Assembly: GCA_033239005.1 (NCBI GenBank) | Contig: BSQZ01000097.1 | Coordinates: 62,001 to 126,000, forward strand | Source: Lamellibrachia satsuma | Lineage: Eukaryota > Annelida > Polychaeta > Sabellida > Siboglinidae | Reading direction: 5' to 3' | Length of the DNA: 64,000 nt | Part shown: positions 9,826-52,571 of the stretch, one piece after another | How the letters are laid out: each line of letters starts with the position of its first letter | How positions within the stretch are numbered: position 1 is the stretch's first letter | Notes under the pieces: generated by a model | Seen by the model: the letters and a program-made list of their open reading frames with translations, nothing else | Databases searched by the model: none | Told to the model about the DNA's origin: nothing | Translations under genes and position numbers: made by a program

Positions 9826-9932
9826 TCATAGGATCTCCTTTGCAGGCACCCACATCGTTGGGCCAGACTGTTCACGGATGACTCCTTTCACTTTCGTGGT
9901 GATCTCCTCTGGCATGTCTCCGGTGACAACAG
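9826..9932 (-). CDS. DLG: DLG last exon: C-terminus and stop
   Basis: 107 nt reading VVTGDMPEEITTKVKGVIRE, then QSGPTMWVPAKEIL and TGA (9826-9828). The DLG family ends GDTLEEIYNKCKxVIEEQSG, then IWVPAKEKL, so this is the true C-terminus at the right length. The acceptor is CTTTGTAG. The upstream partner exon (EEQARKTF helix) is missing from the 1.65 kb before it. Confidence 0.93.
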
Positions 9933-10276
9933 CTACAAAGAGACAGGACACTTCATACAACAGCTACAAAAAGACAGGATACTTCATACAACAGCTAAAA
10001 AGAGACAGGACACTTCATACAACAGCTACAAAGAGACAGGACACTTCATACAACAGCTACAAAAAGACAGGATACTTCATACAACAGCTACAAAGATACA
10101 GGACACTTCATACAACAGCTACAAAGAGACAGGACACTTCCTACAAAAGCTACAAAGAGACAGGACACTTCATACAACAGCTACAAAGAGACAGGACACT
10201 TCCTACAACAGCTACAAAGAGACAGGACACTTCATACAACAGCTACAAAGAGACAGGACACTTCATACAACAGCTT
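9926..10276 (-). repeat. 31-bp array built from the last DLG exon's acceptor
   Basis: Eleven full units of exactly 31 bp (9926 to 10266) plus a partial. On the minus strand each reads GTGTCCTGTCTCTTTGTAG and then CTGTTGT, i.e. the Py-tract and acceptor AG of the last DLG exon plus its first seven coding bases. A few units vary in the Py-tract. The unit next to the exon is the genuine junction. Confidence 0.93.
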
Positions 10277-11102
10277 CTTACCCAGAAACTGCAAGAATAT
10301 ATCGATTACCAGAAACTGACTTGATATTGCACACAGTAGTAGTCAATTATTACAATTATGCAATATGACAAGTGTCATTATCAATTGTTTTAGTATCCCG
10401 CATGCACGCACACACGCACGCCCGCATGCACACACGCACAACTGAAATGATTGAAAACTGATAAGAAAGAAATTATAGATTAGACAAATCTACACTGGTT
10501 GTATAAGAAATAAATGGGACAGATCATTAATTAACCTTGGGGTTCTAATCATACGAATAAAGTGCCAGTGATTTTTACAGTATCCCATTTGACAATTTTT
10601 GCTCTATGGAAAATTATTTCTTAACAGGGATGTGTCCATATTTGAGGGCTGCGACACTTTGCCCAAATAAATATTTCTAGTGGACGGTTGGCAACAAATG
10701 CTCGTGTTAATGACGGAAGGATCCCTGGTGTACGAAGACAGAATCCGGTTTGTTTGTGCGACAAATGACAGGGAGCATACTCCAAGTTGATTGTCTCGAA
10801 AATAAGTGTAGGATTTGACAAAAGCACTACTGCAGGTCGACGACAAGACAACAATTCACGTGAAGTTTTTATTAAAACTAAATTGTAACTTTAGCACACT
10901 GTGGACTGACTTCTAGCGTTGTTTCAATGGGGAAAAAAAGCAGAATTGATTGAGCCGTGTCTTGGACACTTCTGCAGTGACTCGTGAAAGATGGAGTCCA
11001 CACATTTACCCCCTGTGTGGGATCTTTTACTTCCCCTGACATAGACACCAGATAGAAGGGACGAACGGCTTTTACTGTCTCTTCCGAAAGAATGTTACAG
11101 AT

Positions 11103-11193
11103 GGTCAGTAACACGTTACAACATGTGGTCAGTAACACGTTACAACATGTGGTCAGTAACACGTTACAACATGTGGTCAGTAACACGTTACAA
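11103..11193 (+). repeat. 24-bp tandem repeat, four copies
   Basis: GGTCAGTAACACGTTACAAC plus ATGT repeated at 11103, 11127, 11151 and 11175. It lies where the missing penultimate DLG exon would be expected, but no exon sequence is recognisable in or around it. Confidence 0.9.
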
Positions 11194-11317
11194 GATGGCT
11201 TCAGGCTGATGTAAGAGCTTTTTAAGACCAATACTTTGAAAATCTAAGACCTTCAAAGACAGATTCAATTGAAAACAAAGCAATTTGACATCCTCTAGGG
11301 AACGTTTATTTAATGGT

Positions 11318-11430
11318 CAATGTGTAATACACACTGATCACTAAATACATCTTTAATTAAATGATAAACATTGTGTATCATTTAATTAAAGATGTATATC
11401 ACTCAACCATACACAATGTATTCCACCTTT
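11318..11430. repeat. Fold-back palindrome
   Basis: A perfect 22-bp inverted repeat (11345-11366 and 11376-11397) around a 9-base loop, extended by an imperfect stem on both sides to arms of about 50 bp. It would extrude as a hairpin. It may be a small fold-back transposon or MITE remnant; I see no target duplication. Confidence 0.8.
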
Positions 11431-11588
11431 GTCTATTAACAGGTTAAGGCTTAGGCCTAGTTAGGCGAATTCAAATTTAAGACTTAAAAGAAACTGTCAA
11501 GGCCTTACAAATGTGAGATCCAATTTAACAATTAAAGACCTTTTAAGATTTTTAAAGATTTCATGAACAGTTGTTCTACCAGACTCAC

Positions 11589-11698
11589 ATGATGGCATCG
11601 ACAGACTTTGGCTTGATGAAAATGGCGACAGGGAAGAGTCCAGCCACCTACAGTCTCTTAATGGCATTGCCGCTGACATCCAGGATACAGTGCTTGCC
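11589..11698 (-). CDS. DLG: DLG exon: GuK segment with an in-frame TAG and a damaged acceptor
   Basis: 110 nt reading GKHCILDVSGNAIKRL, stop, VAGLFPVAIFIKPKSVDAIM. The family has Gln (CAG) where TAG stands at 11648-11650. The two bases before GGCAAG are AT instead of AG, so the natural acceptor is dead. An almost identical copy 46 bp further upstream in the gene keeps CAG|GGCAAG. The donor is GTGAGT. Confidence 0.9.
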
Positions 11699-11775
11699 AT
11701 GTCAGAGACAGACACAAGTGTACATCAAAGATACAGTGCTTGCCCTGTCAGAGACAGACACAAGTGTACTTGTTT
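11684..11775 (-). repeat. 46-bp doublet over a DLG splice acceptor
   Basis: Two copies at 46-bp spacing (starting 11684 and 11730), each with the first ~15 coding bases (GKHCI) and the preceding CTTGTGTCTGTCTCTGACA(G/T). Only the outer copy keeps AG. Using it would add 46 nt and shift the frame. Confidence 0.9.
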
Positions 11776-12209
11776 TACAACCAATCAAATCTGTTGTTTC
11801 ATACACTCCTATTACTGGGGACACTTAATGTTATATACTCTTGGTATCAAGAAATACCATAGGACATTTAGGCTGTTTCCACATTTTAGTAAACTCCTCT
11901 TACTGAAGGCGCTTATTTTTTTCTTACCAGGGACATTTGCAATTTAGGAAAACTTGTCTAAATATGACACTTTAATTTCAAACATGCCCCTCATATTGAT
12001 GGTACAAGTCATTTCAGCAACTCTCTCTCAACAAAACACCTTGAGGACACTTGTTTTGTCTTATTGATGACACTTCAAAACAAGGGTTTTGTATTGACCG
12101 AGGACACTTGTAATTTGCCTTAACTGAGGATACTTCCAATTTGCATACTAATGACACTTGTAATATGTCTCACTAGGACACTTGTGATTTGCATACCGAG
12201 GACACTTAC

Positions 12210-12382
12210 ACTTTCTGCCACCTCCCTCACTGATGCGACGCTCGTTCCATAGAGGTTGCTATTGTACTGGCCGGCCTCTATAAACAGATGGTTCTGTATA
12301 TCCGCCTCCATCTGTTCCCACGACTCGACAAAGTGGTAGTCGCAATGGTCAACCTCGTGTTCTCGTTGCAGCCGTGTTGTAT
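12210..12382 (-). CDS. DLG: DLG exon: middle of the guanylate-kinase domain
   Basis: 173 nt. After the completed His it reads [18 protein letters not shown], then [20 protein letters not shown] and VREVAES. These match DLG GuK (DYHFV; [16 protein letters not shown]; REVAE). The acceptor is TGCTGTCATAG and the donor GTAAGT. No lesion is seen. Confidence 0.94.
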
Positions 12383-13254
12383 CTATGACAGCAATGACAT
12401 GACACTACAAGTGACATGGTGACAGTATCACACAAATGTTTGTGACGGACATTATTTGACAAGGACTGTCATTTAACAAATATTGTTGCCTAAAACTCCA
12501 TCCTCAACTGATTTAGCTGATCGCAAATCCTGTTCGTTGATGTCGAAATATGTAGTGTGTGAATAGTTTAAGTAGTATCTGCAGTCGATTTAATAAAAAA
12601 ATGCCTATTTTTGTTCAAATCATCAAAATAATTCACTTTAGTCATTAGCTTTGGTAAAGTTTAAAATAGCAGATATCCAAAATGGTAAACACTGTGTGGG
12701 TTAATGCCGATCATGGCCGTGACTTCCATTCTCTCGCCGATCACATAACAAAGTGACACAATTTCACCAAGGGTGAAATTTGTGAGTTCAGCGTTTCCAT
12801 TATCACTTCACTTAATCTTTGACCAAACATTAAGTAATTTAATAGTTTGTCTGATGATTTAAGAAAAAAACTACATACAAAACTTGTACAAATGAGCTAA
12901 CATTAGCATGTGGCAGTGGTTACTAGTTAGGTTTGATCTTTGCATAATAAATTTGCAATGAGAATATTGAAAAAATCAAATTGAGAAGGGAACATCACTG
13001 AATAAAGACCATCACTTTTTACAGACAGTTGCTTAACAACTGACCATCATTTAACAGAGGTTAAGACTTAACAAGGACCGTCACTGAATAAGGACAATTT
13101 GAAAAGGTTAAGAGATGAAATATCAAGGCAGTTACACGTTTTGCATGAATATTATTTCTTACCAATAGAGATGTTACAAATACAAATAAATTCAGTGGTG
13201 CAATGCTCTGTAAAACAGTAGTTTAGTTAGCCAATAAAAACCGGTGCACAGCCT

Positions 13255-13960
13255 CTTTGACACAGACCACCACTTAACATGGGCGCTGACATCAGATATA
13301 CCATCACTTAACATGGGCGGTAACATAATATAGACCATTACTTAACATGGGCGGTAACATAAGATAGACCATTACTTAACATGGGTGGTAACATAAGATA
13401 GACCATCACTTAGCATGAGCAGTAACATAAGATAGACCATCGCTTAACATGGGTGGCAACATAAGATGGACCATCACTTAACATGTGCGGCAATATAAAA
13501 TAGACCATTACTTAACATGAGCAGTAACATAAGATAGAACATCACTTAACATGGGCGGTAACATAAGATAGACCATTACTTAACATGAGCGGTAACATAA
13601 GATAGACCATTACTTAACATGAGCGGTAACATAAGATAGACCATTACATAACATGGGTGGTAACATAAGATAGACCATTACTAAACAAATGTAGCCATTT
13701 TGTACTATCATCTGCAGTGCCCCCAAACATAACATTCATGCGGTCCAGGGAAAAACGTTGAAACCAGAAGACAGAAGGAGGATGGTGAAATTGCAAAAAA
13801 AGATTGAAATGAAGAAACACCATTACTTAACATGGGCGGTAACATAAGATTGAATATTACTTTACATGCGCGGTAACATAAGATAGACCATTACTTAACA
13901 TGGGCCGTAACATAAGATAGATCATCACTTAACATGGACAGTAACATAAGATAGACCCAG
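13255..13960 (+). repeat. 34-bp intronic tandem array, interrupted
   Basis: Units of TAACATAAGATAGACCATTA plus CTTAACATGGGCGG repeat about 17 times at 13255-13685 and again at 13820-13960. A related unit-free segment with GAAACCAGAAGACAGAA occurs between and after. No exon sequence is recognised inside. Confidence 0.85.
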
Positions 13961-14332
13961 GGAAATGTTGAGAGAAACCAGAAGACAGAAAGAGTATGGT
14001 GAAATTACAAAAAAAGATTGGAATAAAGAAACACCTGAGGATGAAGGTAGAGGGGAACAGACTGCGAGGAGCAGGACACATTCAGAGACTGAGTGAGGAG
14101 AGATTCACAAAGAGAGCAGGGAAACCAAAGTTGGTGGTAGAAGAGGAAGACCAAAATTAAGGTGGAGAGGGAGAGGGAGAGGGAGAAGAGTCATCTGAAC
14201 AAGGCAGGTGTGAACAGCAAATAATGACAGATGATCGAGAGATAAAGACAAGTAGTTGTGAGGAAAACAATTTGCGATGTGGCCCAGAGAATAAGACATG
14301 TCCAAGACAAGAGTTTGTAACGAGAGACTTAC

Positions 14333-14431
14333 GTGGTACGCAGCTTCCAAACAGAGAGGAGTCGGATATAAGGTCATCGTTGATACGGTCCTTCAACGGT
14401 CCCAGGATAATCACTGGTCTCTTGTATTTCA
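14333..14431 (-). CDS. DLG: DLG exon: start of the guanylate-kinase domain
   Basis: 99 nt reading [20 protein letters not shown], then SLFGSCVP. The family has [20 protein letters not shown] and FGSCVPH. The acceptor ATGTTTACAG is the one amplified in the 49-bp array. The donor GTAAGT leaves one base completing His with the next exon. Confidence 0.93.
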
Positions 14432-14690
14432 CTGTAAACATTCAAAGGTCTCAGGATAATCACTCGTCTCTTGTACTTCACTGTAAACATTCAAAGGTCC
14501 CAGGATAATCACTGGTCTCTTGTACTTCACTGTAAACATTCAAAGGTCCCAGGATAATCACTGGTCTCTTGTACTTCACTGTAAACATTCAAAGGTTCCA
14601 GGATAATCACTGGTCTCTTGTACTTCACTGTAAACATTCAAAGGTCCCAGGATAATCGCTGGTCTCTTGTACTTTACTGTCAATAGTGAA
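14398..14690 (-). repeat. 49-bp array built from a GuK exon start and its splice acceptor
   Basis: Units start at 14398, 14447, 14496, 14545, 14594 and 14643. The first is the genuine exon edge; the others repeat, on the minus strand, TTGAATGTTTACAG followed by TGAAGTACAAGAG and the rest of the first ~34 coding bases ([12 protein letters not shown]). Five of the six acceptors keep the AG; the outermost unit (14643) has diverged there. The unit is not a multiple of three, so use of an outer acceptor would shift frame. Confidence 0.92.
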
Positions 14691-14759
14691 TATATCAGGT
14701 CAACAATTTTCTTAATAATTGTGTTACACGTTTTATCCTAAGTGGGCTGTTAGATGCAA

Positions 14760-15230
14760 ACATTGTTACAAGTTGGGAAAATACAGTTTCAGGGGTTAAC
14801 GGTATTTTTGGTAGTATACACTGGGAACAAAAAGTAGATTAGAATTAGATGATCGAAGCTGTCTGAGCTGTCTTGCAGGAGTGAGCAGTGAATGTAAATA
14901 CGCTTGTTGCTTGAATCAAAGTGCTCAATAGGTAATCGTACAGATCTTAAAAATGAAGCGACATCAGACAGGAAGCCAATGCAATGTTTTAAGAAGTGGT
15001 AATGAGTGAGAGAAACGAGGCGACCAGTGAAACTAGTGCCAAACAATTTTGCACACACTGAAGTTGCAATAGTTTTGGTGACATCAAATGACATATATCG
15101 TCAAATACAATGAAGGTCACGAATGTGATAAAAGCAGCAACAACAAGTTTGTGAAATATGCTGTCTAAAATTTGAATTACTATCAAAGTTGACTCCTAAA
15201 TTCCGCGCTGAAGATGGCCAGTGTAAAAGT
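14760..15230 (-). mobile_element. L2/CR1-like LINE fragment, reverse transcriptase C-terminus
   Basis: The minus strand, across frame changes, reads LLKTLHWLPV, then YLHSLLTPARQLRQLRSSN. This matches the conserved C-terminal block of many L2/CR1-type retroposons (LHWLPVxxRI, then SLRSSN). It occupies the interval where DLG SH3 exons are expected, so the insertion or a linked deletion may have removed them. Confidence 0.65.
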
Positions 15231-15396
15231 TTGGCTCAGCATAGATGTTGTGAACAAAAGTTTACCATGCTGCTTGTGTGAACTAATAATAAGAAACTGT
15301 TTAATTTGCATTCAATAATTGTGCAGATCTTAAAATTACAGACAGATGTGGTGTAGCACAAACATGACACCTGTGACAGATGTCATGACAGTGTAC

Positions 15397-15499
15397 CTGA
15401 CATAGAGTGTTCTCTTCTGTGTCGTCTTCAGGCTCCCGGTATTTGTGTTCATCATTTGTTCCCGCAGGTCCTGAATCTTTGACTCAAACCTGTTGTACT
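15397..15499 (-). CDS. DLG: DLG exon: PDZ3-SH3 linker and start of SH3
   Basis: 103 nt reading [17 protein letters not shown], then TTQKRTLYV. The family motif [15 protein letters not shown] followed by SQKRSLYVRA makes this certain. The acceptor is TGTGTTACAG and the donor GTACAC, which is weaker. The SH3 exons that should follow (ALFDYD and DDEWWQ patterns) are not found downstream. Confidence 0.92.
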
Positions 15500-15689
15500 C
15501 TGTAACACAACAGGTTAAAGGTCACACAGGGTCATATGGGTCACACATGGTCAAAGGTAACAAAGAAATGCAATAATATTAATGAAAAAAACTTCTATTG
15601 CACCAACATCCTCAGGAACCTGAGCTCAGATGCATATCAAAATGAAAAGGTTAGGCAATCTCAAAAATGGAAGACAATGGTTAAAGTTG

Positions 15690-15815
15690 TCAACAGGTGG
15701 AGGAATACGCTAGGGAGTTATGGAGGGAAAGGGCAGGTGTAATGTCAAGTTGTCTACGGGTGGAGGAATACGCTGGGGAGCTACGGAGGGAAAGGGCAGT
15801 TATAATGTCAAGTCT
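15690..15815 (+). repeat. 62-bp intronic doublet
   Basis: GGTGGAGGAATACGC and following bases occur at 15697 and again at 15759 with few differences. No exon sequence recognised. Confidence 0.8.
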
Positions 15816-16390
15816 TCAGATGACACTGATATTGTATCCTGTTTCCTGCTGACCCAACACTAAGATGGAGTGAATTCCAAAGAGTTGGCGTGGCAACCGA
15901 GAAAGCCCCAGTTTCTATGTTTATTCATCTGGGATATTACTGGTAAATCAGAACCTCCACGATACTACTGAAGAACTCCATCCTCGCTAGCAAGGGGTGG
16001 TAGTATTACTGAACTACCCCCGGGAGATCAACTTGTCGAAACGTGTCAGTTTATCCCACGCCAAGTGTGGATGTGTGGCTGAATCATTTGAACTTCGTTC
16101 CACTTCCTGTCATGGTCAACGTGTTTCAGATGTGTCCGTGCCCAAAACTCCAAAGAGCGTTTCCAGGAAATGCCTATCATTACCCACCTGACCAGGAACG
16201 ATGAGTCCACTACCAATTAAAGTTAAGTTCCTGAATGCGAGCCCAGTAAATACCAGCAAGCTATCCGATTGGGTAACACAGCAACTAAAAAATCAGCGTT
16301 TCAACAGCTTGATCTGCCAGGGGTACTGATGTAGTTAGAAGCCCCTGGTGGCGGGGATGAAGAACTCTGGTATGACAGTAGTGTACGTAC
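15816..16390. other. DLG intron, no other feature recognised
   Basis: Intron sequence between two DLG exons; nothing further supported. Confidence 0.5.
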
Positions 16391-16493
16391 GATCTGGCTG
16401 GTACTGGGCGACAATGTCCACAGCATCCCCCGCTCCCTTCAGGGCGGCTGCAGCCTGCTCATGGGTTGCATTCTGTAGGTCTATGTCATTTAC
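16391..16493 (-). CDS. DLG: DLG exon: second part of PDZ3
   Basis: 103 nt reading [19 protein letters not shown], then [20 protein letters not shown] and IVAQY are strongly DLG PDZ3. The acceptor is TTTGTTTTCAG and the donor GTACGT. It ends one base into a codon completed by the next exon (DQYNRFESK). Confidence 0.93.
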
Positions 16494-16499
16494 CTGAAA

Positions 16500-17510
16500 A
16501 CAAACAACAATTGAATTAATCATGCTTGCTAAAGTAAAAGCTGGCAACAAGCTATAATTAAGACAGATTAGCTAACTGGGTCCAGCTTACAAACACCAAA
16601 CTAAACATAAACCCAAAGCAGACTAACTGAAACCAACAAATAACACAAGGTAGTGGGTGAAAGGAAATCGTCATGTATTTTTATCATGTGATATCAATTA
16701 ACATACATAGTATATGTATAAAACCACATATAAAATTACTCCCTAATATTACATTAAGTCAACAAAATAAAAAAGTACAATTTCTGCTAGTAAATCAGGA
16801 ATGGTCGGTGGGAGGTTTAAAACTTGCCACAGACAAAAATAAGAGAACCACTCTTGTCGCAGCACAATTTGAAAGTGCTGTGTTTGGCGCCAAACTAGCG
16901 GTATGTAGCAAAGCGGCCTGCTGATTGGCGCACACAGACCCCGATCGATTTATTTTCCCCAAAAAAACAATGGTTTATTTTTCGCTCACAGTCCATAAGG
17001 GTGCTGATTTTTAACGCATGCTGGCAGCGTTGCTTTATGATGGCTGAACATGAATGGTAAGTACAGGTGGTCGCTTAATGCAGGTGATCACTTAAATGCA
17101 GATAATTTAACATAACATTTTTGTGAAAAGAGGAGTTGACATTAATGACAGGTTGTCACTTAATGCGGGTAATTTAACAAGTGAAACTTGTGACAAGTGG
17201 AGTTGACTCTGGTCATTAATGACAGGTAGTCACTTAATGCAGGTGGTCGCTTCAGCAGGTTTGACGGTACAGTGCAACCTCACTATAAAGGTCACATTCG
17301 AGACTGGCCCAAGGTGACCTAAATAGTGAGGTGACTATTAGTGGGACTAAACATCTTATACTTTACTGTTTGGGAACAATTTGGGATTGTTCCAGGATGA
17401 ACATTATGACAAAGGGGCTGTACTACTGAGGTGACTGTAAAACGATGTCCGACAGTATATGTTTTGATGAAAACAATAAACATATTCTTATTCTGTTTCT
17501 GATTAGAGAA
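16500..17510. other. DLG intron with imperfect repeats
   Basis: Mostly unassigned. At about 17045-17265 a loose ~100-bp repeat with CACTTAATGCAGGT and ATTAATGACAGGT recurs two to three times. Confidence 0.5.
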
Positions 17511-18043
<533 letters not shown>

Positions 18044-18339
18044 CTGAAAACACACATCCCAACTGTCACACCCACCAACAGCTGAAAGCTGACTCGTGTG
18101 ATTGCTGCGCAACATCACTGCAACAGTGCCATCTGTTGGTGACTGTTTAACAAGCATTGAAATGTCATTGAACTGCTTGAATCACCTCGCAGCCTGACCC
18201 AAAGAACGTAAATAACAGTCAAAAGTCATGTTCAACAGTCGATGCAGCGATCATGTCTGTTGCACATTTCCACACAAGTCGTCTCTTTTGTCATCTACGT
18301 TCTTTGGTTTGGCCACCTGGAACTGGAAGCCAACATTCA

Positions 18340-18890
18340 ATAAAAAGCAGAAAGAACGTCTTTTTATATGAACAGTTTGTGCTGTTGCATGGTTGTGAAG
18401 CCTGGACAACGACACGTATATTAGAAAGAATTAGATGGTTGCTACTTCGGAATGTCCAGGATGGCATTTAACATACAAAGGAGTCAGCATGTCATAAACA
18501 GTGAGCTGTAGGGAGAAATGCCAGAACTGTCAGATAAGATCAGAGAGCGAAGGATGCAGAAAGAATTAGATGGTTGCTACTTCGGATTGCCCAGGATGAC
18601 ATTTAACATACACTGGAGTCAGCATGTCATAAACAGTGAGCTGTAAGGAGAAATGCCAGAACTGTCAGATAAGATCAGAGAGCGAAGGATGCTTTTCGCA
18701 GGCCACTGCTACAAAACCAAGAACGAGCCAGTGTCTCGATTAATAAACTGGTTACTAAAAGATGGAGTGAGGAAATCAGGGAAGCTTGCACTTACATACA
18801 TTGACATCCTGACATGTGACGCAGGTTTGAAAAGAGGAAATAAAGACTACAAGATAGAAAAATACGTAGGGCCATTGTGAACCAGGAAGC
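18340..18890 (+). mobile_element. LINE fragment, reverse transcriptase C-terminal region
   Basis: Reads LLHGCEAWTTTRILE, then after a gap MPELSDKIRERRMLFAGHCY, EPVSRLINWLLKDGVRKSGK and LTYIDILTCDAGL. This is the conserved tail of a common LINE group (LLYGCEAWTLT, RRLRFAGHC, GRPxLTYxDxL). Several stops and a 135-bp internal duplication show it is dead. It lies in a DLG intron. Confidence 0.75.
18423..18692 (+). repeat. 135-bp tandem duplication inside the LINE fragment
   Basis: 18423-18557 and 18558-18692 are near-identical direct repeats starting AGAAAGAATTAGATGG. Confidence 0.9.
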
Positions 18891-19024
18891 TCATTCAACA
18901 TATGCAAGATCGAACTTTCTTGTCACAAACATCAAAACCATGATTACTGTCACAAAAACTTATTGCCCATGATCACACGTTTACATAACACCAGCAGTCA
19001 AACATTACATACAAGGACACTAAC

Positions 19025-19232
19025 TGTGGAATTGTGTCTTGCTCTGGTGATCCCGCAACGGCCGGGTAACTTGTGCTGTGGCTGACAGTTGAGGTTCTCT
19101 GCTGCTGCAGCTGCTGCTGTGGCTGCTGCTGTAGCTGTGGTATATGGTATGGTTGGTGCAGCTGTGGTGGTGTTGACTGTTGCTGCAGTGGTAGCTGTGG
19201 TTGTGGCGGTGGCTGACTGTAGTCTGTCTGTT
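19025..19232 (-). CDS. DLG: DLG exon: Q/P-rich linker between PDZ2 and PDZ3
   Basis: 208 nt encoding a low-complexity linker rich in Gln, Pro, Ser and Thr, ending SPEQDTIPQ, which runs in frame into EPRRLVLNK of PDZ3. The acceptor is CCTGTCCACAG and the donor GTTAGT. Known DLG proteins have a variable linker ending close to EDIPREPRR here, so length and composition are free to vary. The CAG/CTG-rich stretch makes ORFs in other frames. Confidence 0.82.
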
Positions 19233-19485
19233 CTGTGGACAGGGAAGCAAGTGTCACACGAAGTGGCACAAACCTGCAGGGGTGCCAGGTATGTTGCACA
19301 TAATGCGGTAGATCTACCACTTTTCGAGACGTGAGGACAGTAGTCATCCTCTCCACTAGGGGGTTCCGACTGTATCAATACCTCGGGCAGATCAACTTAT
19401 TAAATCACTGATTTTTCAGTTGCTGTGTTAACCAATAATACTGCTCACTCAGACTGATGGGGCTCGCATACGGGAACTTAAAGCA

Positions 19486-20930
19486 AAACAAAAGTCATGG
19501 TGTTCATTTTATGCACCTATGAGTTACTAAAATAACCTTTTGTAACTACAATTAAGAATATGAACAATGAAACAAAAAACAATGCCAAAAAATCTGTTTG
19601 TATGGTTATTGATAACAAACCTAGGGACAAGAAAAATATTCATCCTGTTGTTATCAATAACCATACACTACCTTACACTAAAAAATGTAAATACCTTGGC
19701 CATATTATAAACAATAATCTTACTGATGATGACGATATTGCCAGGCAGAAAATATGTATCTATGCTCAGGCAAATGCTTTAGCCAGAAAATTTTAGTTAT
19801 GCAACAATTCCATTAAAACAACTTTATTTAATTCATACTGTGGTTCAATGTACACCTCAAGTCTTTGGTGTCATTTTAAAAAACAGAGTCTGAAAGGTAT
19901 TACTGCCGCTTATAACAACAGTTTTAGAATTATACACAACCTGTCACCCCGCTATAGTGCAAGCCATATATTCGCTACTAATTATGTTAAATCCTTTAAT
20001 GAACGTATTCGCTCATCAATTTTTAGCCTTTTATGCCGGTTGGAAAAATCCGACAATATACTTTTTGTGAATTATCTTCCCACTTTTATTTATTATCAAA
20101 GTCCATTGATTAAACATTGGATTGATCAATTGTATGCTTTTAATTCATGATGTTTGTACTTTTATAAATATATTTTTTTATCCTTACGTATCTTATATAT
20201 ATATTTTACTACACGTCATGTATGTATATTTATATATATAAATTTTTCTCAATACATGTACCTCTATTGTTCATGTTTGTATATGTATGTTTTTTTTTAA
20301 CCTGTATGTATTTATAATATTATGGGCTCTTGCCTGAAATAAAACATTATTATTATTATAATATCATGCCAGTGGTTTACTAGGAAAACCTAGTTCAATA
20401 CACATCTTAATTTCATGGGCCACGTCATACTGTTAGATAACCCTATGTCACAAGGACCATAGTCTGGCAATATTTGCTCCCCAAATGAAAATATATTCGT
20501 ATACATCTATTCCTGTACCTGCCAATAGGATATGGCCATGCTATTTGGATACAAACTCAACTTAAGTAACACATTTCGGCCTTTGTTTAATAAACTAGTC
20601 CTCTTTCTGGCAAAACAACATGCTTGTTTGAGACTTTGCCTTGGTTCTGTGTATGTTGGCCTCCATTAATACGTCACTTGTAGTCTAGGTTACCCCGATT
20701 TCATAGAACTACACTTATCAGCTGCGCTGGTTAATATGTCAGCCTTCAGTCATTTGGAAAAATGACTGTGGAATCTCCCACCTTTAGAACACATTTTGAG
20801 TAAGCCGCTGGCATGATATTCCTGATTTTAGTTGCACGTGATTAGATTTATTACCTATTTTAGGGGCATAGCCCCCAAAACCAATGCTTTTACTTCATTT
20901 TAATTGGTAGTGAACCCATTGTGGCTGGTC
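19486..20930 (+). repeat. Dispersed repeat, copy A, split by a LINE
   Basis: 19486-19557 plus 20362-20930 align, with divergence and some extra sequence, to 25013-25490. In copy B the two parts are contiguous, so the LINE at 19558-20361 inserted into copy A later. Family unknown. Confidence 0.7.
19558..20361 (+). mobile_element. 5'-truncated LINE, reverse transcriptase C-terminus and 3' tail
   Basis: One frame reads YTKKCKYLGHIINNNLTDDD and on through one TAG (ending 19796) to WCHFKKQSLKGITAAYNNSF, RIIHNLSPRYSASHIFA. KYLGH and the RxIxNLSPRxSA block are typical of LINE reverse transcriptase C-termini. A poly-adenylation-like AATAAAA and a short ATT-repeat tail end it at about 20361. The single stop makes it inactive. 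Confidence 0.7.
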
Positions 20931-21327
20931 GGATGGGTAATAAGGAGATATGATAGTGAATATCTGGCACCACGGGGCTTTGCTATGCGACAGCAGGGGA
21001 AGTGTGGAATTTGTAAATTTTAGGATATGAATTTACTTAATTCTGGAGCATTTTCTACGTGAGATGGTGATTGGGCAGTATATTAGGAGTCAAAATAATA
21101 CACAGACAACTTTACTCAAATGTATGGATAACTTAGCGTTTCCCCAGTACCTCCAAATTTAATTTAACCTAGCTGTACTGTCTTTTGTAGGAACTACAAA
21201 TAAACATGTTTGTGACTGGATTAAAAATTATAGTTCACAATGTAAAATATCACTGACTCAAGTCTTTTACCTAGCAGGCAGTGTATGACTCAAGGGACTA
21301 ACATTCAATGATTCTGTGGCCACCTAC

Positions 21328-21460
21328 CAGGAGCCAGTGTGTGACTTGATGGGCTTGTGCTAAACGGCTTGGCCACTGTCAATACAACCCTCTCCAGTGT
21401 GGCCTTCAGACATTCCACGGCTTCTTTGTGCGTCACGTTTGACAGGTTGACTCCGTTTAC
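21328..21460 (-). CDS. DLG: DLG exon: second part of PDZ2
   Basis: 133 nt reading VNGVNLSNVTHKEAVECLK, then VVLTVAKP, the last strand of PDZ2. The acceptor is TTAAATTTCAG and the donor GTAGGT. The single leftover G completes a codon with the AA that opens the next exon, giving APEQTDYSQ. Confidence 0.92.
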
Positions 21461-21659
21461 CTGAAATTTAACAAAAAAGTTATCAGGGTAACACAGCCAC
21501 CAATGCTAACACATCCCAATGTTTCACCTTTGAAAAAAAACAGTGACAAATTGAACGCCTGGATATAACGAACTAGTCTTGGCTTTCAAATTTTTAGTTT
21601 TGTTTTACCTGTCTGGTGGCGCTACCAACCCATTTTGTCAAGATGCTAGGCAACACGCT

Positions 21660-22153
21660 GTTTTTTTTTCATTTTACAAACAGTGAATAAAACAGTTACA
21701 ATTGTTTCTCCAAAGAATCATAAAATAACCGTTCAGCTCCATCATGTTTAAAGGTAAAAAGTCTCATTGTTTTTATTGTAAAACCATATTACAAACTAAA
21801 TCTGTCTTAACCTCTTACCCACTGATTTTATCGTTATTTGTGTAATATTTTGAATGTCATGTTTACATTTTATGCGGATGGAACGTAAATTTACGAGTAA
21901 TGCTACACATATTACGTGATCGCAAGAATGTCTGAAAATGAAATCTTTGTTTGGTTGTTCATCACACCGAAAACTCAAAGTATTTATGGGTAAAAACCTT
22001 TAAAAACACCTTAAAATAAATAGCTCATATTACGTCAAGACGCAAGGCAATGCACGGGTTTTTGTTAATTTTACAAATAGTGAATAAAACAGTTAGAATT
22101 GTTTCTCCAAAGAATCATAAAATAACCATTCAGCTCCATCATGTTTAAAGGTA
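21660..22153 (+). repeat. ~390-bp tandem duplication hosting the RTE-like insertion
   Basis: Sequence around 21675-22035 recurs at about 22060-22153 and continues after the LINE at 24695-24830. The LINE therefore entered the second copy of a pre-existing duplication. Confidence 0.75.
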
Positions 22154-24694
22154 TCATGATATCATGAGCAATTTAGGGGATAAAAACATCAACCTGATTA
22201 TGGGGGATTTCAATGCAAAGATTGGATCGGACAACCAAGGATATGAAAATGTGATGGGGGTTCATGGGCTGGGTGTGATGAATGACAATGGGGAGCGGTT
22301 TGTGAATGCTTGTGCAATAAACAATATTGTGATTGGGGGAAGCGTGTTCACACACAAAAGAATACATAAGGCGACATGGGTATCTCCTGACCAAGTCACT
22401 GAAAATCAGATAGACCATATTGGCATAAACAAAATGTTCAGAAGATCGCTACAAGACGTGCGTGTGAAGAGAGGCGCTGACGTCGCTTCTGATCACCACC
22501 TTGTAACAGCCAGGCTAAAACTCAAGCTAAGAAGAAATTGAGTAGAACAAGAAAGACGAAAGGCAAGATATAATGTGGATTTCCTGAAGGATCCAAGAAC
22601 AGCAGAAGAATATAAAGTCGCATTAGCTAATATATTCAAAGTCCTGCAAGAGCTGTATGATGAAGAAGAGAGAGTAGACATCAACAGCCAATGGAGTCAC
22701 ATCAAGGATGCAGTAAACACCACATGCGAAGAGATAATTGGCAGAAGGAAACCCCAACAGAAAGACTGGATTTCAGTAGAAACAAAGAGGAAAATACAGA
22801 CCAGAAGAGAAAAGAAGGAGGCAGTCAACAGCAGCCGCACAAGGGCGGCAAAGGTAATAGCTCAGAAAGAGCACACAGCAGCAAATAGAGAGGTGAAGAA
22901 AAGTGTCATAACAGACAAAAGGAACTTCGTGAAGGGACTTGCACAAGAGGCAGAAAAGGCAGCAGCTAGCAGGAACATGAAGCAACTTTATGATACAACA
23001 AGGAAGTTAGCTGGAAAGTTTAAGAAATCAGAGCGGCCAATCAGAGACAAAAATGGGAACGTCCTGATGGGGGCAGACAAACAGCTTAACAGATGGGCAA
23101 AGCATTTTGAAGAGCTGCTCAACAGACCAGCACCGCAGAATCAACCAGACATCCAACCAGCTGAGACATATCTCCCAATAGACTGTAACAAACCCACTAG
23201 AGAAGAGATAAAAAAGGCAATCGCACATATGAAAAATGGGAAAGTAGCAGGCCTTGACGGTATCCCTGCAGAAACACTAAAGGCAGATGTAAATACTTCA
23301 GTAGAAATGCTGTACTGTCTTTTTGAGGATATCTGGGAAAAAGAAGAAATTCCAGCAGAATGGAAAGAAGGTTACCTTATCAAGATCCCCAAGAAAGGAT
23401 ACCTGAGCCGCTGTGATAACTACAGAGGAATCACGTTGTTGTCAGTACCTGGAAAGGTTCTAAACAGAATAATCAGTGGACCAAACTTTGCGTGAACAGC
23501 AAGCAGGCTTCAGGCAGGACAGATCGTGTACTGACCAGATTGCAACACTGCGAATCATAGTGGAACAATCCATCGAATGGAACTCATCCCTATACATCAA
23601 CTTTGTTGATTACGAGAAAGCCTTTGACAGTGTGGACAGGGAGACACTCTGGAAAGTGCTAAGACACTATGGGGTGCCCAAGAAACTAGTCAACATGATT
23701 AAAAACTCCTATGAGGGAATGTCATGCAGAGTTATTCATGAAGGTCAACTTACAAAGAACTTTGAGGTTATGACGGGGGTGAGACAGGGATGCTTACTGT
23801 CACCATTCCTCTTCATTCTAGTCATAGACTGGGTCATGAAAACAGCAACCAAGGAGAAACGAAACGGAATCCAGTGGACGATGCTGACCCAACTTGATGA
23901 CCTGGACTTTGCGGATGACCTTGCACTCCTGTCTCACAGCCATAGGCAGATGCAGGACAAAACAACATAACTGGCATTGATTTCAGCACAGGTTGGGTTG
24001 AAAAACAACAAAAGGAAAACCTGAGAACAAATACTACTTGCGAAACACCAATCATGATTGAGGGAGAGACACTGGAAGAGGTTAAAGATTTCAGATATCT
24101 AGGCAGCATAGTGGATACGCTTGGAGGGACAGAGGCTGACGTAAAGAAAAGGATCAGCAAAGCAAGGGTAGCTTTCCACCTGTTGAGAAATGTGTGGAGG
24201 TCAAAGGTAATTGGAGAAACCACCAAAATACGCTTGTTTAACACAAATGTAAAGTCTGTGTTGCTGTATGGAGCGGAAACGTGGCGAATAAACAAGACCA
24301 CGCTGAAAAGGATTCAGACATTTGTCAACCATTGCCTGAGAAGAATTCTGCAAATACACTGGATGGACAGGGTGAGCAACAAAGACCTTTGGGATAGAAC
24401 ACACCAAGCCCAAATAGAGATAGAGATCCTTAAGAGGAGATGGGGATGGCTTGGCCACACCTTGAGAAAGCCAAGCACCAACATAACCAGGCAAGTCCTG
24501 ATGTGGAACCCCCAAGGCAAGAGAAAGAGGAAAAGACCAAAAAACACCTGGCGGCTTGACCTCGAGGCTGACATCAAGCAAACAGGGAATGGCTGGCAAC
24601 AACTGGAGAGGATTGCCCAAGACAGGAGGCGCTGGAGAAATGTTGTGGATGGCCTATGCTTCAGGAGGAGTTAAGGGCCTAAGTAAAGTAAGTA
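22154..24694 (+). mobile_element. 5'-truncated RTE-like LINE with perfect target duplication
   Basis: Flanked by the 13-bp direct repeat ATGTTTAAAGGTA (22141-22153 and 24695-24707). It encodes the end of an endonuclease (MGDFNAKIG, DHIGINK, SDHHLVTARL), a reverse transcriptase with the LDFADDLALLSH active site, and the C-terminal [19 protein letters not shown] and KRPKNTWR blocks. One TGA (22539-22541), a frameshift with a small deletion near 23470-23480, a TAA ending at 23970 and a further frameshift inactivate it. The 3' tail is TAAGTAAAGTAAGTA. Confidence 0.88.
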
Positions 24695-39380: not shown

Positions 39381-39390
39381 CTTCTGCAAA

Positions 39391-39516: not shown

Positions 39517-39946
39517 GTCATAAAATAACACGTTGGTTTGGACATAATTGTTGCAGTTTTATGTGGTTTTCGGTCTCTGCTAAGTACAAATCTATTTCGC
39601 CAAGAACAAATGTTCCAAACCGCCCATAGCTCAAAACTGTAGTTGATGAAACTAAAAGGGAGTACAACATTATATATTGTTCTTCCCCTATTGTTCACTT
39701 TATGCGATTAGATAGGACTTCGCTCTGCCTTGTATTTGTCCTTATTGTATAGAGTTACAATAAATTTGAATTGAATTTTTTAGTCCAGTCGACTAACCTG
39801 ATACATTCAGACCGAGGTACTTTTATGTGGATTAAATATCTCCATTTAGCAGGTCCATAAACAACTGTTTTATTAAAATGTTTGCTTAGTGTAAGGTGAA
39901 AACGTCGTGCTACTTCACTGAATAAAAGTGTTCTCTCCCCTTGCAG

Positions 39947-40062
39947 GCAAGTTCCATATGTATATTGTCATCAACAACCTGTTCTTCATTGGCAATCAAC
40001 TCGCAGCACTCAGTAGGACAGGCAAGGTCAGGGTGTGGCACACCATGACACTGGACTGGCAG
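39947..40062 (+). CDS. KCTD3/SHKBP1: KCTD3/SHKBP1-like WD40 exon, copy 1
   Basis: After CTCCCCTTGCAG it reads [20 protein letters not shown], then LSRTGKVRVWHTMTLDWQ. The KCTD3/SHKBP1 family has [20 protein letters not shown], then NAVTQHWQ, one blade of its WD40 propeller. The donor is damaged: CAG is followed by TTAAAT, not GTAA. Tandem copies of the exon end that follow keep CAG|GTAAA. Confidence 0.87.
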
Positions 40063-40258
40063 TTAAATATCTTAAGATTGCTGCTCTCAGTACGACATGC
40101 AAGGTCGGGGTGTGGCATACAATGAAAAAACTTGCAGGTAAACCTCTCACCGTGGAAGGTTTTTCGCTCACATTGGCTCCATTCAATATGACAGGCAAGG
40201 TCGGGGTATGGCATGCCATGACACAGAACTGGCAGGTAAATCACACGGTGGCTGCACT
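40009..40258 (+). repeat. Exon-end repeats after WD40 exon copy 1
   Basis: Three units, each with GGCAAGGTC(A/G)GGGT, the TGGCA(C/T) region, CTGGCAG (or TTGCAG) and a donor-like step. Units 2 and 3 have G|GTAAA. Unit lengths are 77-95 bp. Confidence 0.87.
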
Positions 40259-40553
40259 CAACGACTCATAACGTCGGACGGAGCAGGCCGCGTTTCGTTG
40301 AGCTCTCGTGTGACGATGTTCTCTTGTTACAAATGCGACGGAAAATAATGAAATTATCTAACGGCATCGAACTTCCAACGATCCGTACGATGAATCTGGT
40401 GAGATAAACATTCACAATACCCTAAGATGGGGGTGGATTTGCACATAATCTATGGGTCTGTCAGATTTAGCGTGCTGCCATATTGAACGTCCATCTTGGA
40501 CATGCCACATTTGACACACCTATCAGACGTGTAACCAACGACAATAAGACATC

Positions 40554-44279: not shown

Positions 44280-45040
44280 GTGCAGTTTTATGTGGTTTTT
44301 GGTCTCTGCTAAGTACAAATCTATTTCGCCATACACAAATGTTCCAAACCACCCATAGCTCAAAAGTGTAGTTGATTAAACTAAAAGGGAGTACAACATT
44401 ATATATTGTTCTTCCCCTATTGTTCACTTTATGCAATTAGATAGGACTTCGCTCTGCCTTGTATTTGTTCTTATTGTATAGAGTTACAATAAATTTGAAT
44501 TGAATTTTTTAGTCCAGTCGACTAAACTGATACATTCAAACCGAGGTAATTTTATGTGGATTAAATATATCCATTTAGCAGGTCCATAAACAACTGTTTT
44601 ATTAAAATGTTTGCTTAGTGTAAGGTGAAAACGTCGTGCTACTTCACTGAATAAAAGTGTTCTCTCCCCTTGCAGGCAAGTTCCATATGTATGTTGTCAT
44701 GAACAACCTGTTCTTCATTGGCAATCAACTCGCAGCACTCAGTAGGACAGGCAAGGTCAGGGTGTGGCACACCATGACACTGAACTGGCAATTAAATATC
44801 TCATGATTGCTGGACTCAGTACGACATGCAAGGTCGGGGTGTGGCATACAATGAAAGAACTTGCAGGTAAATCTCTCACCGTGGCAGGTTTTTTTGCTCA
44901 CATTGGCTCCATTCAATATGACAGGCAAGGTCAGAACTTGCTGGTATATCTCACGGTGGCTGCACTCAACAGGGCAGGCAATGTCGTGGTGTGGCATGCC
45001 ATGACACAGAACTGGCAGGTAAGGCTCCTCATGACGGCCA
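44280..45040 (+). repeat. Segmental duplication, copy 2 (partner 39552-40270)
   Basis: See the partner entry. This copy carries four exon-end units, the third with an internal deletion, the last with CAG|GTAAGG. Confidence 0.9.
44676..44791 (+). CDS. KCTD3/SHKBP1: KCTD3/SHKBP1-like WD40 exon, copy 2
   Basis: Reads [20 protein letters not shown], then LSRTGKVRVWHTMTLNWQ. The acceptor CCCTTGCAG is intact. The donor is destroyed (CAA followed by TTAAAT). Downstream repeat units (44820-45025) carry replacement donors. Confidence 0.87.
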
Positions 45041-45059
45041 ATCAGTGATCTCTAGGGGG

Positions 45060-45490
45060 TCACAGCGGAGATAGTTTTGTATAAGTATATGGACAAATGA
45101 AATGTTATGCAAATATTTCTATGAGGATGTTGTTTCATTATATTTTAATTGTCATCTTTTGAATGAAACTCTGATCTGTATTTCATAAATATCTTGCAAA
45201 TACGGCAGTTGTTTATATTTGTGTACTAAGGTCACTGTATAGCCAAGGTGTCCTTGATATACCCATATCCGTAGTAATACTTAAAAATAACTGAAACTTT
45301 ATATTTACTTGTCATCATGATTAGCATGCTTTGCCTTATAACAGTGACAAAACAGATCAACAAATGTGTAACATAAGATCAATTATACAATTGAAAGCTT
45401 AGTTGTCTTTTCAAGTAATCCAAATTGAACCATTGATTATGAATATAACTAAAGTTATATTAGTCTGAATGGATACGGTTAGGACACAGC
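45060..45490. other. No gene; similar to 53.8-53.95 kb
   Basis: The end of this stretch (from about 45395) aligns to sequence before the exon at 54047, showing that this is another partial copy of the same gene region. Confidence 0.55.
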
Positions 45491-45595
45491 TAATTTTCAT
45501 GACATGATCAGCACACAAGCTAATTTCCATGACATGACCAGCACACTGCCTAGCTTGATGCCCTTTGCATCATTTAAAGTCATCTCCATAGATAA
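45490..45595 (+). pseudogene. KCTD3/SHKBP1: Partial KCTD3/SHKBP1-like exon 'G', copy 0
   Basis: Reads MTSTLPSLMPFASFKVISI, matching the family [18 protein letters not shown]. The 5' part of the exon is replaced by a 30-bp tandem duplication of its own start (CATGACATGA(T/C)CAGCACAC twice). Confidence 0.65.
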
Positions 45596-47204: not shown

Positions 47205-47960
47205 TAACACAATGTTAGAATGCCAGACTCGGCTGAGGGAACCCAGGTTCAAACCCAATTGCTGAAGTATCAAAGCTTTGACAATTTTGTTCCCCCACAT
47301 TACCACAGTTCACTCAGCTGTAAATGAGTACCCAGGCAGAGACAACTGTGGAAATGTGAACGAAAAATCTTGCAGCATTGCTGAAAGCTTCCCACAGAAA
47401 TTCAAAAGGTGTTGAAATGAACTGGTCAGCCAGGGGGTGAACTGTTAAGCACGTTGAACAATCCCAAGGACTGGATACAGTGCTGTGTAAATATAAACAT
47501 ACCGTTACTTGAGGTCTTTTTACAGGTGCTGCGGCAGCCAGGAACAATTTTGGTGGACAAAGAGTGAACAATATCAAGGGTCACTTCAATCGGATCGCTC
47601 TTGCCTATCCACACTTTGTGTGTTGGTACAGGTTGGTGTCATAAGTAGACGTAACCACATTGGAAGCAGGACATTAATGGTCCTCTTGCAAATGTATTGG
47701 ATTAAGAGTGGACCAGACAACTGTAACGATGAATTGTGCGTGAGGGGAGAATGTCACATTAGATTGAGAAACTAACTTTTTCAGCTGTTCTAATAAATCA
47801 GCATTTGCACTGAGTAGTAATGGCTTATGTTTTGGTAACCAGTTTGATTTGTTTAATGTTTTTATTTATTCTTTCACTGTACATCCTTCTTGTCAAAGGA
47901 TATCTGATTTTTATGAGCATGCTGTAGTCAAGAAGAGTACTTCATTTAAATGAGCAAAAT
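47205..47960 (+). repeat. Segmental duplication E1 (partner 58925-59695)
   Basis: Nearly colinear with 58925-59695: a degenerate SINE-like head (GGTTCAAACCC B-box, CACTCAGCTGTAAATGAGTA), exon 'A', and following intron. Confidence 0.88.
47526..47631 (+). CDS. KCTD3/SHKBP1: KCTD3/SHKBP1-like exon 'A', copy 1
   Basis: 106 nt reading RNNFGGQRVNNIKGHFNRIA, LAYPHFVCWYR; acceptor CTTTTTACAG, donor GTTGGT. It ends two bases into an Arg codon completed by exon 'B' 478 bp downstream (YRMKDS), as the family's VCYRMKESSGW. This is the copy with the best downstream gene structure. Confidence 0.82.
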
Positions 47961-49830: not shown

Positions 49831-49900
49831 AGAACCAATCACAACCCTTCTTTTTGTTCTCATGAACAGGACAGGTCTGGGCGTTGCACGCCTTGACACA

Positions 49901-51922
49901 TACCTACCTACCTACCTATCCTCTTCGGGCCCAGTGGCCCATAAAGCCGAAGTGAATCTCCTCCATCTTGTTCTGTCAGCTGCTACACGTCTGGCTTCGT
50001 TCCAGCTATTCCACCCCAGTATACGTCTTTCATTTTCAATAGTTGATCACCACGTTGTCTTTGGTCGCCCAACCTTTCTTTTACCTTCAGGCGTCCAGGT
50101 CAGTGCAGTCTCACAATTGCTGTTCTTCTCCATTCGTAGGATATGTCCTACCCACTTCCATCTTCTTATCTTGACCTCAATGCTGATTGTCTTCAATTTT
50201 GTTTTTGCCAGAATATCTCGATTTGATACAACGTATGGCCATCGAATTTGTAGGATTCGTCTTAAACACTTGAACAAAAATGTATCTAACTTTCTGTTGT
50301 CTCCTTCGTTAATTTTCCATGTTTCACTTCCATACAACAACACTGGTTTAACAAGTGTGTTAAAAAGCCTCAATTTCGATCTCAATGTGTATATATTTGA
50401 ACTCCATATCTGCTTTAGTTTCATGAAGGATACCCTCGCTTTACAAATTCTGTTAACAATATCATCGCCGCCTCCTCCTTGCTTACTAACGTTCGCACCA
50501 AGGTAGTTATACTTGTCCACTTCCTTTAGCTCTTGATCATCGATTAGTATTCTGTTTTCGCACTTGCTGTTTATCCTCAATATTTGAGTTTTCTTTTTAT
50601 TTATTCTTAGTCCTGTCCTTGCTGCAAATTGATTCAGTTGTCTTGTCTTTGTTTGCATGTGTGTGTAGCATGATGACATGAGTGCTATGTCGTCGGCAAA
50701 GTCCAGGTCCTCTAGTTTTGACGTGAAGTTCCATCTTATTCCTGTTTTGTTTCCCGCTGTTGTGTTTCTCATTATCCAGTCCACTACTATCAAGAAGATA
50801 AATCCAGACATTACATCTCCTTGTTTAACTCCAGTGTTGACCTTGAACCACTCAGATTCCTCACCTTCGTCTAACACTACACATTCACTATCTTCGTATA
50901 ACATATGTACCATGTGGATTATCTTGCATGGAATTCCATAGCTCTCCATAATTTTCCATAGACTCTCCCGGTGCACTGAGTCAAATGCTTTTTCAAAATC
51001 CACAAACGTGATGTATAGAGTTGCTTGCCATTCCACTACCTGTTCTATAATATTTCGTAAAATAAATATCTGTTCTACTGTGCCTCTCCCACTTCTGAAA
51101 CCTGCTTGTTCGTCTCTCAACTTGCTGTTAACTCCATCTCTTATTCTGTCAATGAGTACTCTTCCGAATACTTTACTAGGAACAGATGTCAAAGTAATTC
51201 CTCTCCAATTCCCGCACTCTGTCAGGTCACCTTTCTTCGGTATTTTAACGATCAGTCCCTGCTTCCACGTTTTTGGCACTTTCTCTTGTTCCCAAAATGT
51301 TCTGAATAATTTGACAAGCCATTTCTCTGTTGTATTCATGTCTGCTTTTAATAATTCTGCTGTAATTTCGTCCTTGCCCCCTGCTTTCCCGTTTTTCATC
51401 TTCCTTAGCGCTGTTCTAATTTCTGCCTTTGTTATTGGGTCAGTGCTGATTTCGTTTATGATCGGATCTATCTCCACATCTGTTACAGGGTCAGCAGGTA
51501 TAGGTCTATTAAGGATTTCCTCAAAGTGTTCTTTCCATCGCTTCCTTCTGGCCAATCCTTCCGTTATTAAGTTTCCACCTTTGTCTTTCACTGCATTTGT
51601 TGTCTTACGTTTGTCATTACTGAGGGTTTTTTTAATATCATATACTTCTTTCATTCTTCCATTATGTGCTGCTTCCTCTGCTTCCATGGCAAGGTGGTCG
51701 ACCCACTTCCTCTTGTCTTGTCTCAAGCTCTTCTTCACTTCTTTGTCTTTACACCTATATTTATCCATGTAATTCTGCTTAATCCTGTCTGACTTTGTCT
51801 GCTCGATGTTGTTCTTCAGTCGTTTTCTCTCTTCTACTAACTCCCACGACTCCTTGCTGATCCATGGTTTTTGCCCTTTCTTTTTGTACCCCAGTACTTC
51901 TTGAGCTGTTTCTTTGTATGTT
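49901..51922 (-). mobile_element. 5'-truncated RTE-like LINE, young copy
   Basis: Flanked by the 9-bp duplication CTTGACACA (49892-49900 and 51923-51931). Ends in the same GGATAGGTAGG tail as the element at 31.6-34.9 kb and is extremely similar to it. It inserted inside a 77-bp exon-end repeat unit, so the array predates it. Confidence 0.92.
50047..51922 (-). pseudogene. RTE-like reverse transcriptase, open for most of its length
   Basis: The LINE-encoded part of a 651-codon frame with the complete reverse transcriptase (KNGKAGGKDEI, DEQAGFRSGRG, FVDFEKAFDSVHRESLW, VKQGDVMSGF, LDFADDIALM) and C-terminal domain (LLYGSETWK, VGRPKTTW). The stop at 50047-50049 replaces an Arg codon (CGA) present in the longer copy; after it the frame continues to the normal end. 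The endonuclease is lost by 5' truncation. The position that is TAA in the longer copy is Glu here. Confidence 0.92.
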
Positions 51923-51931
51923 CTTGACACA

Positions 51932-52571
51932 GAACTACCAGTTAAATCTATCACAGTGGCTGTGCTCGGTAGGACAGGCAATGTCGGGGTGTGGCATTCC
52001 ATGGCACAGAACTGGAACGTAATTCACTCACGGTGGCTGTACTCGGAAAAAGAGGCAAGGTCGTTGTGTGGCATGCCATGGCACATATCTGGCAGGTAAT
52101 TATCTCATGGTGGCTGTACTCTGTAGGAAAGCAAATTCGGGGTGTGGCATGTCATGGCACAGAACTGGCACATAATTCTCTCACGATGGCTGTAATCGGT
52201 ATTAGAGGCAAGATCGTTGTGTGGCATGTCATAGCACAGATCTGGCAGGTAATTCTCTCACGGTGGCTGTACTCAGTAGGACAGGCAAGATCGGGGTGTT
52301 TTATGCCATGACACAAAACTGGCAGGTAATTCTATTAAGGTCGCTGTACTCAGGAGGAGAGGCAAGGTCGGGGTGTGGCATGCCATGGCACAGAACTGCC
52401 AGTTAATTCTCTCAAGGTGGCTATACTCCGTAGGACAGGTAATGTCGGGGTGTGGCATGCCATGACACAAAACTGGCAGGTAATTATCTTATGGTGGCTG
52501 TACTCAGCAAGACAGGCAAGGCTTTTTGTGTCGCATGCCGTTACAGAGAACTGGCAGGTAAGTCAGATAAA
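51932..52571 (+). repeat. 77-bp array built from a WD40 exon end and its splice donor
   Basis: Eight units of about 77 bp from 51969, plus a half unit continued on the far side of the LINE (about 49845-49891). Each has GACAGGCAAGGTCGGGGTGT, a TGGCATGCCATG(A/G)CACA step, GAACTGGCAG and a donor-like GTAATT or GTAAGT. The coding part is TGKVGVWHAMTQNWQ, the end of exon 'C'. The last unit has a consensus donor (CAG|GTAAGT at 52558) and joins in phase to the next exon. The 5' half of exon 'C' is absent here. Confidence 0.92.

Follow-up and report, generated by a model that had tools for sequence, protein, structure and literature searches.

Minisatellites spanning exon borders in decayed DLG and KCTD3/SHKBP1-like gene copies of Lamellibrachia satsuma

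Why should several tandem repeats in one stretch of an annelid genome each carry, within the repeated unit, the edge of a coding exon together with the adjoining intron? The question was raised by a first-pass annotation of 64,000 nucleotides from the vestimentiferan tubeworm Lamellibrachia satsuma, Siboglinidae (contig BSQZ01000097.1, positions 62,001 to 126,000 of the forward strand; this whole stretch is referred to as the window), and it concerns two unrelated genes, a Discs large (DLG) gene on the minus strand and a WD40 gene of the KCTD3/SHKBP1-like type. The arrays are an annelid occurrence of a known kind of element, the amphioxus "mirage", residing in decayed gene copies. Probably they are ordinary mirage-type minisatellites that were born by slippage and span splice sites by chance, and at least one of them is shared with an otherwise intact gene model.

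Tandem repeats were called over the whole window with Tandem Repeats Finder (TRF), which returned 67 rows and recovered all five arrays named in the annotation; the arrays are thus real. Exon borders are homology-based and accurate to a few bases. The arrays at or beside such borders are the following:

9926-10275, minus strand: 31-bp array, 11.3 copies, at the acceptor of the last DLG coding exon (TRF and exon placement)
11676-11769, minus strand: 46-bp array, 2.0 copies, at the acceptor of the GKHCILDV exon (guanylate-kinase exon GK3; TRF and exon placement)
14392-14680, minus strand: 49-bp array, 5.9 copies, at the acceptor of the first guanylate-kinase exon (GK1; TRF and exon placement)
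17550-17937, minus strand: 57-bp array at the donor of the first PDZ3 exon (17550-17921, 6.4 copies, in TRF; the longer range includes a shortened copy beside the exon)
51928-52561, plus strand: 77-bp array, 8.2 copies, at the donor in the third segmental copy of a KCTD3/SHKBP1-like exon
12097-12207, minus strand: 24/48-bp array adjoining the donor of guanylate-kinase exon GK2 without spanning it (TRF)

Every unit of the first five arrays contains both exon and intron bases of homology-supported exons, at donors as well as at acceptors, as had been claimed. The 31-bp unit comprises 24 intron and 7 exon nucleotides, namely a pyrimidine-rich stretch, AG, and CTGTTGT, with which the last exon opens, with the acceptor AG present in all 11 full copies. 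The 49-bp unit (about 9 intron and about 40 exon nucleotides) reads tgtttacAG and then exon bases, the AG being found in 6/6 copies; the 46-bp unit consists of ctctgacag followed by GGCAAGCACTGTATC..., and one of its two copies has the dinucleotide, the upstream copy reading AG and the copy at the real exon AT. On the donor side, the 57-bp unit ends in ...GGGGAGACCAGCTACTGTCT followed by gtgagt, with GT in 7/8 copies (copies read by eye), and the 77-bp unit joins the KCTD3-like ...VGVWHAMTQNWQ to gtaatt, with GT at six of the nine in-register donor sites at 51.9-52.6 kb (12 sites were listed there, of which three lay out of register and were excluded). The announced number of at least six spanning arrays shrinks to five, as the 24-bp array takes in the intron behind the GK2 donor only from its third base on and leaves the border itself outside its unit. 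A set of six independent spanning arrays had to be rejected for this reason, and also because the three 77-bp-type arrays of the window are segmental copies of one exon and represent a single event. The differing units and the differing TRF within-array matches (78-95% across the 31-, 46-, 49-, 57- and 77-bp arrays) support independent origins, and the five arrays look independent, in two unrelated genes.

The annotation knew of no described process that amplifies exon edges, yet such repeats had already been reported from amphioxus (PMC3087553, PMC3902484) and from human IFI6 (PMC4526556). In the amphioxus Adh3 and globin genes (BflGb6/BflGb9), "mirages" with units of 10-160 bp were found at 5' and 3' exon borders, unstable in length and without interference with splicing, and their mechanism was called unclear (PMC3087553); a TnC mirage was added, together with similar, imperfect repeats in PGBD5 (PMC3902484). 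The arrays of the window resemble them as minisatellite-like repeats whose units span the border (5/5 named arrays, the 24-bp array adjoining only), at donors and acceptors, with AG or GT in many copies and, judging by the 46-bp array, with variable copy number. They differ in that the amphioxus examples reside in cephalochordate genes that are seemingly spliced normally, whereas here decayed gene copies of an annelid are concerned. In human IFI6 (IFI-6-16), downstream repeat units serve as splice donors (PMC4526556, citing Turri et al. 1995). There, too, a minisatellite spans a donor and its copies are usable as such; these copies, however, are spliced in a functional gene. For the window, the one frame consequence computed, that of the 31-bp array, would be unfavourable. 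The unit of the IFI6 minisatellite, with its multiple splice donors, is short, reportedly 12 bp. Human segmental duplicates carry internal tandem repeats, some at exon-intron borders, which are likewise minisatellites (units of about 30 bp on average) in recently duplicated genes; there, in contrast to the arrays of the window, new introns are backed by transcripts (PMC2812944). Intron gain by tandem genomic duplication (the Rogers model), as described for potato RdRp, shares the copying of splice signals, although nothing in the window points to the use of a newly gained intron (PMC4974935). Among the papers listed in the literature search, with subscription papers mostly outside its coverage, none looked like an annelid case by its title and the opening of its abstract, and a search aimed at tubeworm minisatellites gave no paper, which does not prove absence.

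What is the state of the genes that harbor these arrays? Translation, a search of PDB sequences that names Discs large proteins (best match 2xkx, E 1.2e-100), and tblastn with related proteins assign the following DLG exons to the minus strand:

9826-9932, minus strand: last DLG coding exon (...TGDMPEEITTKVKGVIREQSGPTMWVPAKEIL, then stop)
11588-11698, minus strand: guanylate-kinase exon GK3, with in-frame TAG (AIKRL*VAG)
12210-12382, minus strand: guanylate-kinase exon GK2
14333-14431, minus strand: guanylate-kinase exon GK1
15396-15500, minus strand: exon between PDZ3 and GK1; no SH3-HOOK exons were found in the interval from here to GK1, where they would be expected
16391-16493, minus strand: second PDZ3 exon
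17938-18043, minus strand: first PDZ3 exon, with in-frame TGA and the GGPADLSGEL part lost
19022-19245 (ends approximate), minus strand: linker exon, rich in glutamine and proline
21329-21463 (ends approximate), minus strand: second part of PDZ2
24836-24985 (ends approximate), minus strand: first part of PDZ2

The DLG gene copy in the window is decayed. It carries two in-frame stops, the TGA of the first PDZ3 exon and the TAG of GK3, has lost the GGPADLSGEL stretch by deletion, and shows AT in place of AG at the GK3 acceptor. The window sequence is free of N, and tblastn over both of its strands gave no convincing match to the SH3-HOOK part (residues 504-639 of the L. satsuma gene model P0102 introduced below; best E 4.6), while for the penultimate coding part (residues 676-703 of P0001 and 821-848 of P0061) the best match comprised 12 residues on the opposite strand (E 0.57). 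Pfam recognized a guanylate kinase and a partial PDZ domain in the joined exons; this query was assembled from the exons found, and its lack of SH3 is therefore not independent evidence. An open frame with PDZ, SH3 and guanylate-kinase parts, as expected of a functional DLG gene, was not found. A single DLG intron contains two arrays of one and the same 34-bp unit, at 13264-13687 and 13821-13955, separated by about 130 bp.

The gene model P0102 (LSAT2_030118) of L. satsuma has the highest per-exon identity to the window copy among the proteins compared: six exons are 92-95% identical, and the linker, which evolves fast, is 85% identical. The deletion interrupts the first PDZ3 exon, and P0102 stops before the final two exons, which therefore lie outside the comparison. 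By E-value it ranks 102nd among the best 120 of 7999 scored matches, probably because it ends early. Its C-terminus reads ...REVAESGKHCIFDVHLCLSLTGQALYL, the final 21 residues agree with translated 46-bp units, and the ending GKHCIFDVHLCLSLTGQALYL corresponds to a reading of two consecutive repeat-type 46-bp units, which implies at least two of them in the gene model, whereas the window holds one such unit and then the real exon. The copy number of the 46-bp array thus appears to differ; for this array only, and through the protein sequence of P0102, is variation in copy number between alleles or relatives implied. The PDZ, SH3 and HOOK parts of P0102 are present and open, with both SH3 models matched in Pfam. 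Judged by its protein sequence, this DLG model appears to have been cut short by reading into the 46-bp splice-site array, and since it runs into the array and stops inside it, the array is to be taken as real, common to the window and the gene model, and as no assembly accident of the window.

The WD40 gene resembles KCTD3/SHKBP1: its best match, the unnamed protein P0121, is 65% identical, and most named matches say KCTD3. The parts relevant to the 77-bp array are:

39946-40262, plus strand: exon E, first segmental copy, with degenerate 77-bp-type units
44675-45045, plus strand: exon E, second segmental copy, with degenerate 77-bp-type units
50050-51927, minus strand: non-long-terminal-repeat retrotransposon with a reverse transcriptase open reading frame, adjoining the 77-bp array
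53289-54204, plus strand: further KCTD3/SHKBP1-like exons (53289-53387; 53569-53741, with a frame shift; 54043-54204, with an in-frame TGA)

The gene is a decayed relic in several partial segmental copies. The third copy of exon E, at 51928-52561, consists of array units only, its upstream exon body missing where the retrotransposon abuts, and the reading frame is shifted near 53.66 kb. Copies of exon C lie at 41845, 47525 and 59262. Altogether, 39552-60951 holds several partial KCTD3/SHKBP1-like segmental copies, those examined being decayed, which are 88-93% alike in three aligned blocks: 39552-40262 with 44281-44970 (93%), 47207-47953 with 58932-59696 (88%), and 54393-55659 with 59703-60951 (93%). 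In all three copies of exon E, the 5'-most 77-bp-type unit has TT instead of GT at the donor, which suggests that both the array and the loss of this donor predate the segmental duplication.

Repeats are prone to mis-assembly, and the 31-, 49- and 57-bp arrays have no outside support of the kind just given for the 46-bp array. An assembly artefact is nevertheless extremely improbable, as the 46-bp array recurs in an L. satsuma record, 77-bp-type units recur, diverged, at three places, and the units differ from one another by point changes.

The lesions also bear on the view that these are working genes in which usable splice sites are preserved. Neither gene copy is intact, and it is the authentic copies of the borders that have lost their sites, at the 46-bp acceptor (AG to AT) and at the 5'-most 77-bp donor (GT to TT); working genes under selection for splice-site copies are rejected for the window in view of these stops, missing exons and lost sites. 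In a broader form, the arrays would be kept as alternative splice sites, or would be steps of intron gain by the Rogers or AGGT duplication model. A good-looking acceptor does occur in 11/11 copies of the 31-bp array, and mirages were proposed as intermediates of intron gain (PMC3087553). However, 25 of the 31 columns of this array are invariant, from which it follows that the AG was not specially kept; with most columns invariant, no signal of selection for AG or GT within the array was detected. The next upstream 31-bp acceptor, if used, would give AVV and a stop in the computed frame, of the unit lengths 31, 46, 49, 57 and 77 only 57 is divisible by three, and three of nine donors are lost in the 77-bp array. 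Selection of this kind is therefore very improbable.

Probably, instead, the arrays arose by ordinary slippage. In a genome prone to minisatellites, short segments that spanned a splice border by chance would have been duplicated in tandem where short direct repeats allowed slippage or unequal exchange, and once two copies existed they would have grown as in any other minisatellite. Slippage at short direct repeats is a standard account of minisatellite birth. In a living gene, a border duplication may be tolerated if a usable border is left, since splicing at the authentic border turns the additional copies into intron, and duplications inside exons would tend to be purged. The 77-bp array would be older than the segmental duplication of its locus, and both gene copies would have decayed after array formation. 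Among the 10 DLG arrays whose units measure 20 bp or more, six do not span a border, which argues that array birth is general in this region. The 31-bp array ends in a 9-nucleotide partial copy, AGCTGTTGT, the footprint to be expected, we infer, of seeding between a 9-nucleotide sequence at the junction and its direct repeat 31 bp upstream.

Several observations weigh against this origin by slippage. A clear seeding repeat is present in the 31-bp array only; the partial copy of the 46-bp array measures 2 nucleotides, and those of the 49-, 57- and 77-bp arrays are uninformative. As P0102 is a gene model, the presence of an array in a working gene is a deduction from it. The overlap with borders was compared with random placement of arrays relative to the homology-based borders, for all 33 merged TRF loci with a period of at least 20, under two nulls: either whole arrays were placed, or one seed unit per array on collapsed sequence, which is closer to the birth of an array. 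With unit seeds, 0.61 overlaps are expected and four are seen in the DLG region 9826-25000 (10 arrays, 19 borders; P 0.0016), and 0.82 are expected and five seen in the window (33 arrays, 40 borders, the 77-bp event being counted once; P 0.0013); plain slippage leaves this excess unexplained. With whole arrays, the expectations are 2.03 (P 0.12) and 3.11 (P 0.19), respectively. The dense DLG part, 9826-18725, gives P 0.22 for whole arrays and 0.0048 for unit seeds, or 0.11 and 0.0009 if its two 34-bp arrays are merged and a 135-bp array is dropped; the values of the DLG set shift only slightly when its three short-period loci are included (P 0.15 and 0.0028). A smaller hand-picked set of 20 arrays, from which most two-copy TRF rows had been left out, gave P 0.11 and 0.0003 (0.26 and 0.002 minus the two-copy 46-bp array) and is superseded by the 33-locus set. 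An overlap above chance, for which the annotation had proposed a test, is thus seen in the DLG and window sets for single units (P 0.0009-0.0048), not for whole arrays (P 0.11-0.22), and in the KCTD3 body alone for neither (P 0.17 and 0.50, respectively). The hypothesis was drawn from the same sequence, so that the P values are a lead, not proof, and an enrichment at exon borders in this window is not established.

The unit-seed excess is what would be expected if splice junctions were mutational hot spots for minisatellite birth, either through R-loop- or transcription-linked breakage or through the make-up of the junction (polypyrimidine tract, AG/GT direct repeats), and a like pattern is reported from several amphioxus genes (PMC3087553, PMC3902484). 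The whole-array null stands, however, the KCTD3 body shows no excess under either null, and the idea is a post hoc one resting on five independent events in two genes; a hot spot is hence unlikely. That minisatellites are truly born at exon borders in animals as distant as annelid and cephalochordate, by a general junction-linked duplication process which furnishes working genes with further splice-site copies and may at times contribute to their death, is conceivable but doubtful.

On the other hand, the arrays may have arisen after gene death, the overlap with borders in unconstrained DNA being a coincidence. Both genes are decayed, border dinucleotides are lost on authentic copies, and the 10 DLG arrays fill 2320 of the 8900 bases of 9826-18725. 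The 46-bp array, however, is found in the L. satsuma gene model in which PDZ, SH3 and HOOK are present and open. In unconstrained DNA, exon bodies should carry arrays too, whereas the TRF rows show only a 30-bp repeat of 2.1 copies at 45484-45546 and a short-unit, glutamine-rich tract at 19099-19140, the glutamine-rich reading of which is common to P0102. An origin after gene death is thus rather improbable.

As the mirage papers found concern amphioxus, the annelid set suggests that border-spanning minisatellites are more widespread in minisatellite-rich invertebrate genomes, and it makes a genome-wide test of enrichment worthwhile. For gene annotators, the L. satsuma DLG model, which looks truncated from reading into a border array, serves as a warning.

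Further features of the window lie outside the two genes. Two minisatellites outside recognized genes were called by TRF, one of 45 bp and 10.3 copies at 2446-2909 (98% matches) and a large one of 1.26 kb at 5829-7088 with a hierarchy of about 29, 58 and 88 bp. A tRNA scan of the window gave no match. A weak Mutator-like transposase match, under the Pfam cut-off, lies at 25955-26632. At 61247-63780, a GDSL/SGNH-hydrolase-like open reading frame (Pfam PF13472) is followed by a 64-bp array of 10.7 copies and a 306-amino-acid open reading frame without a Pfam match, which together are possibly part of a mobile element.

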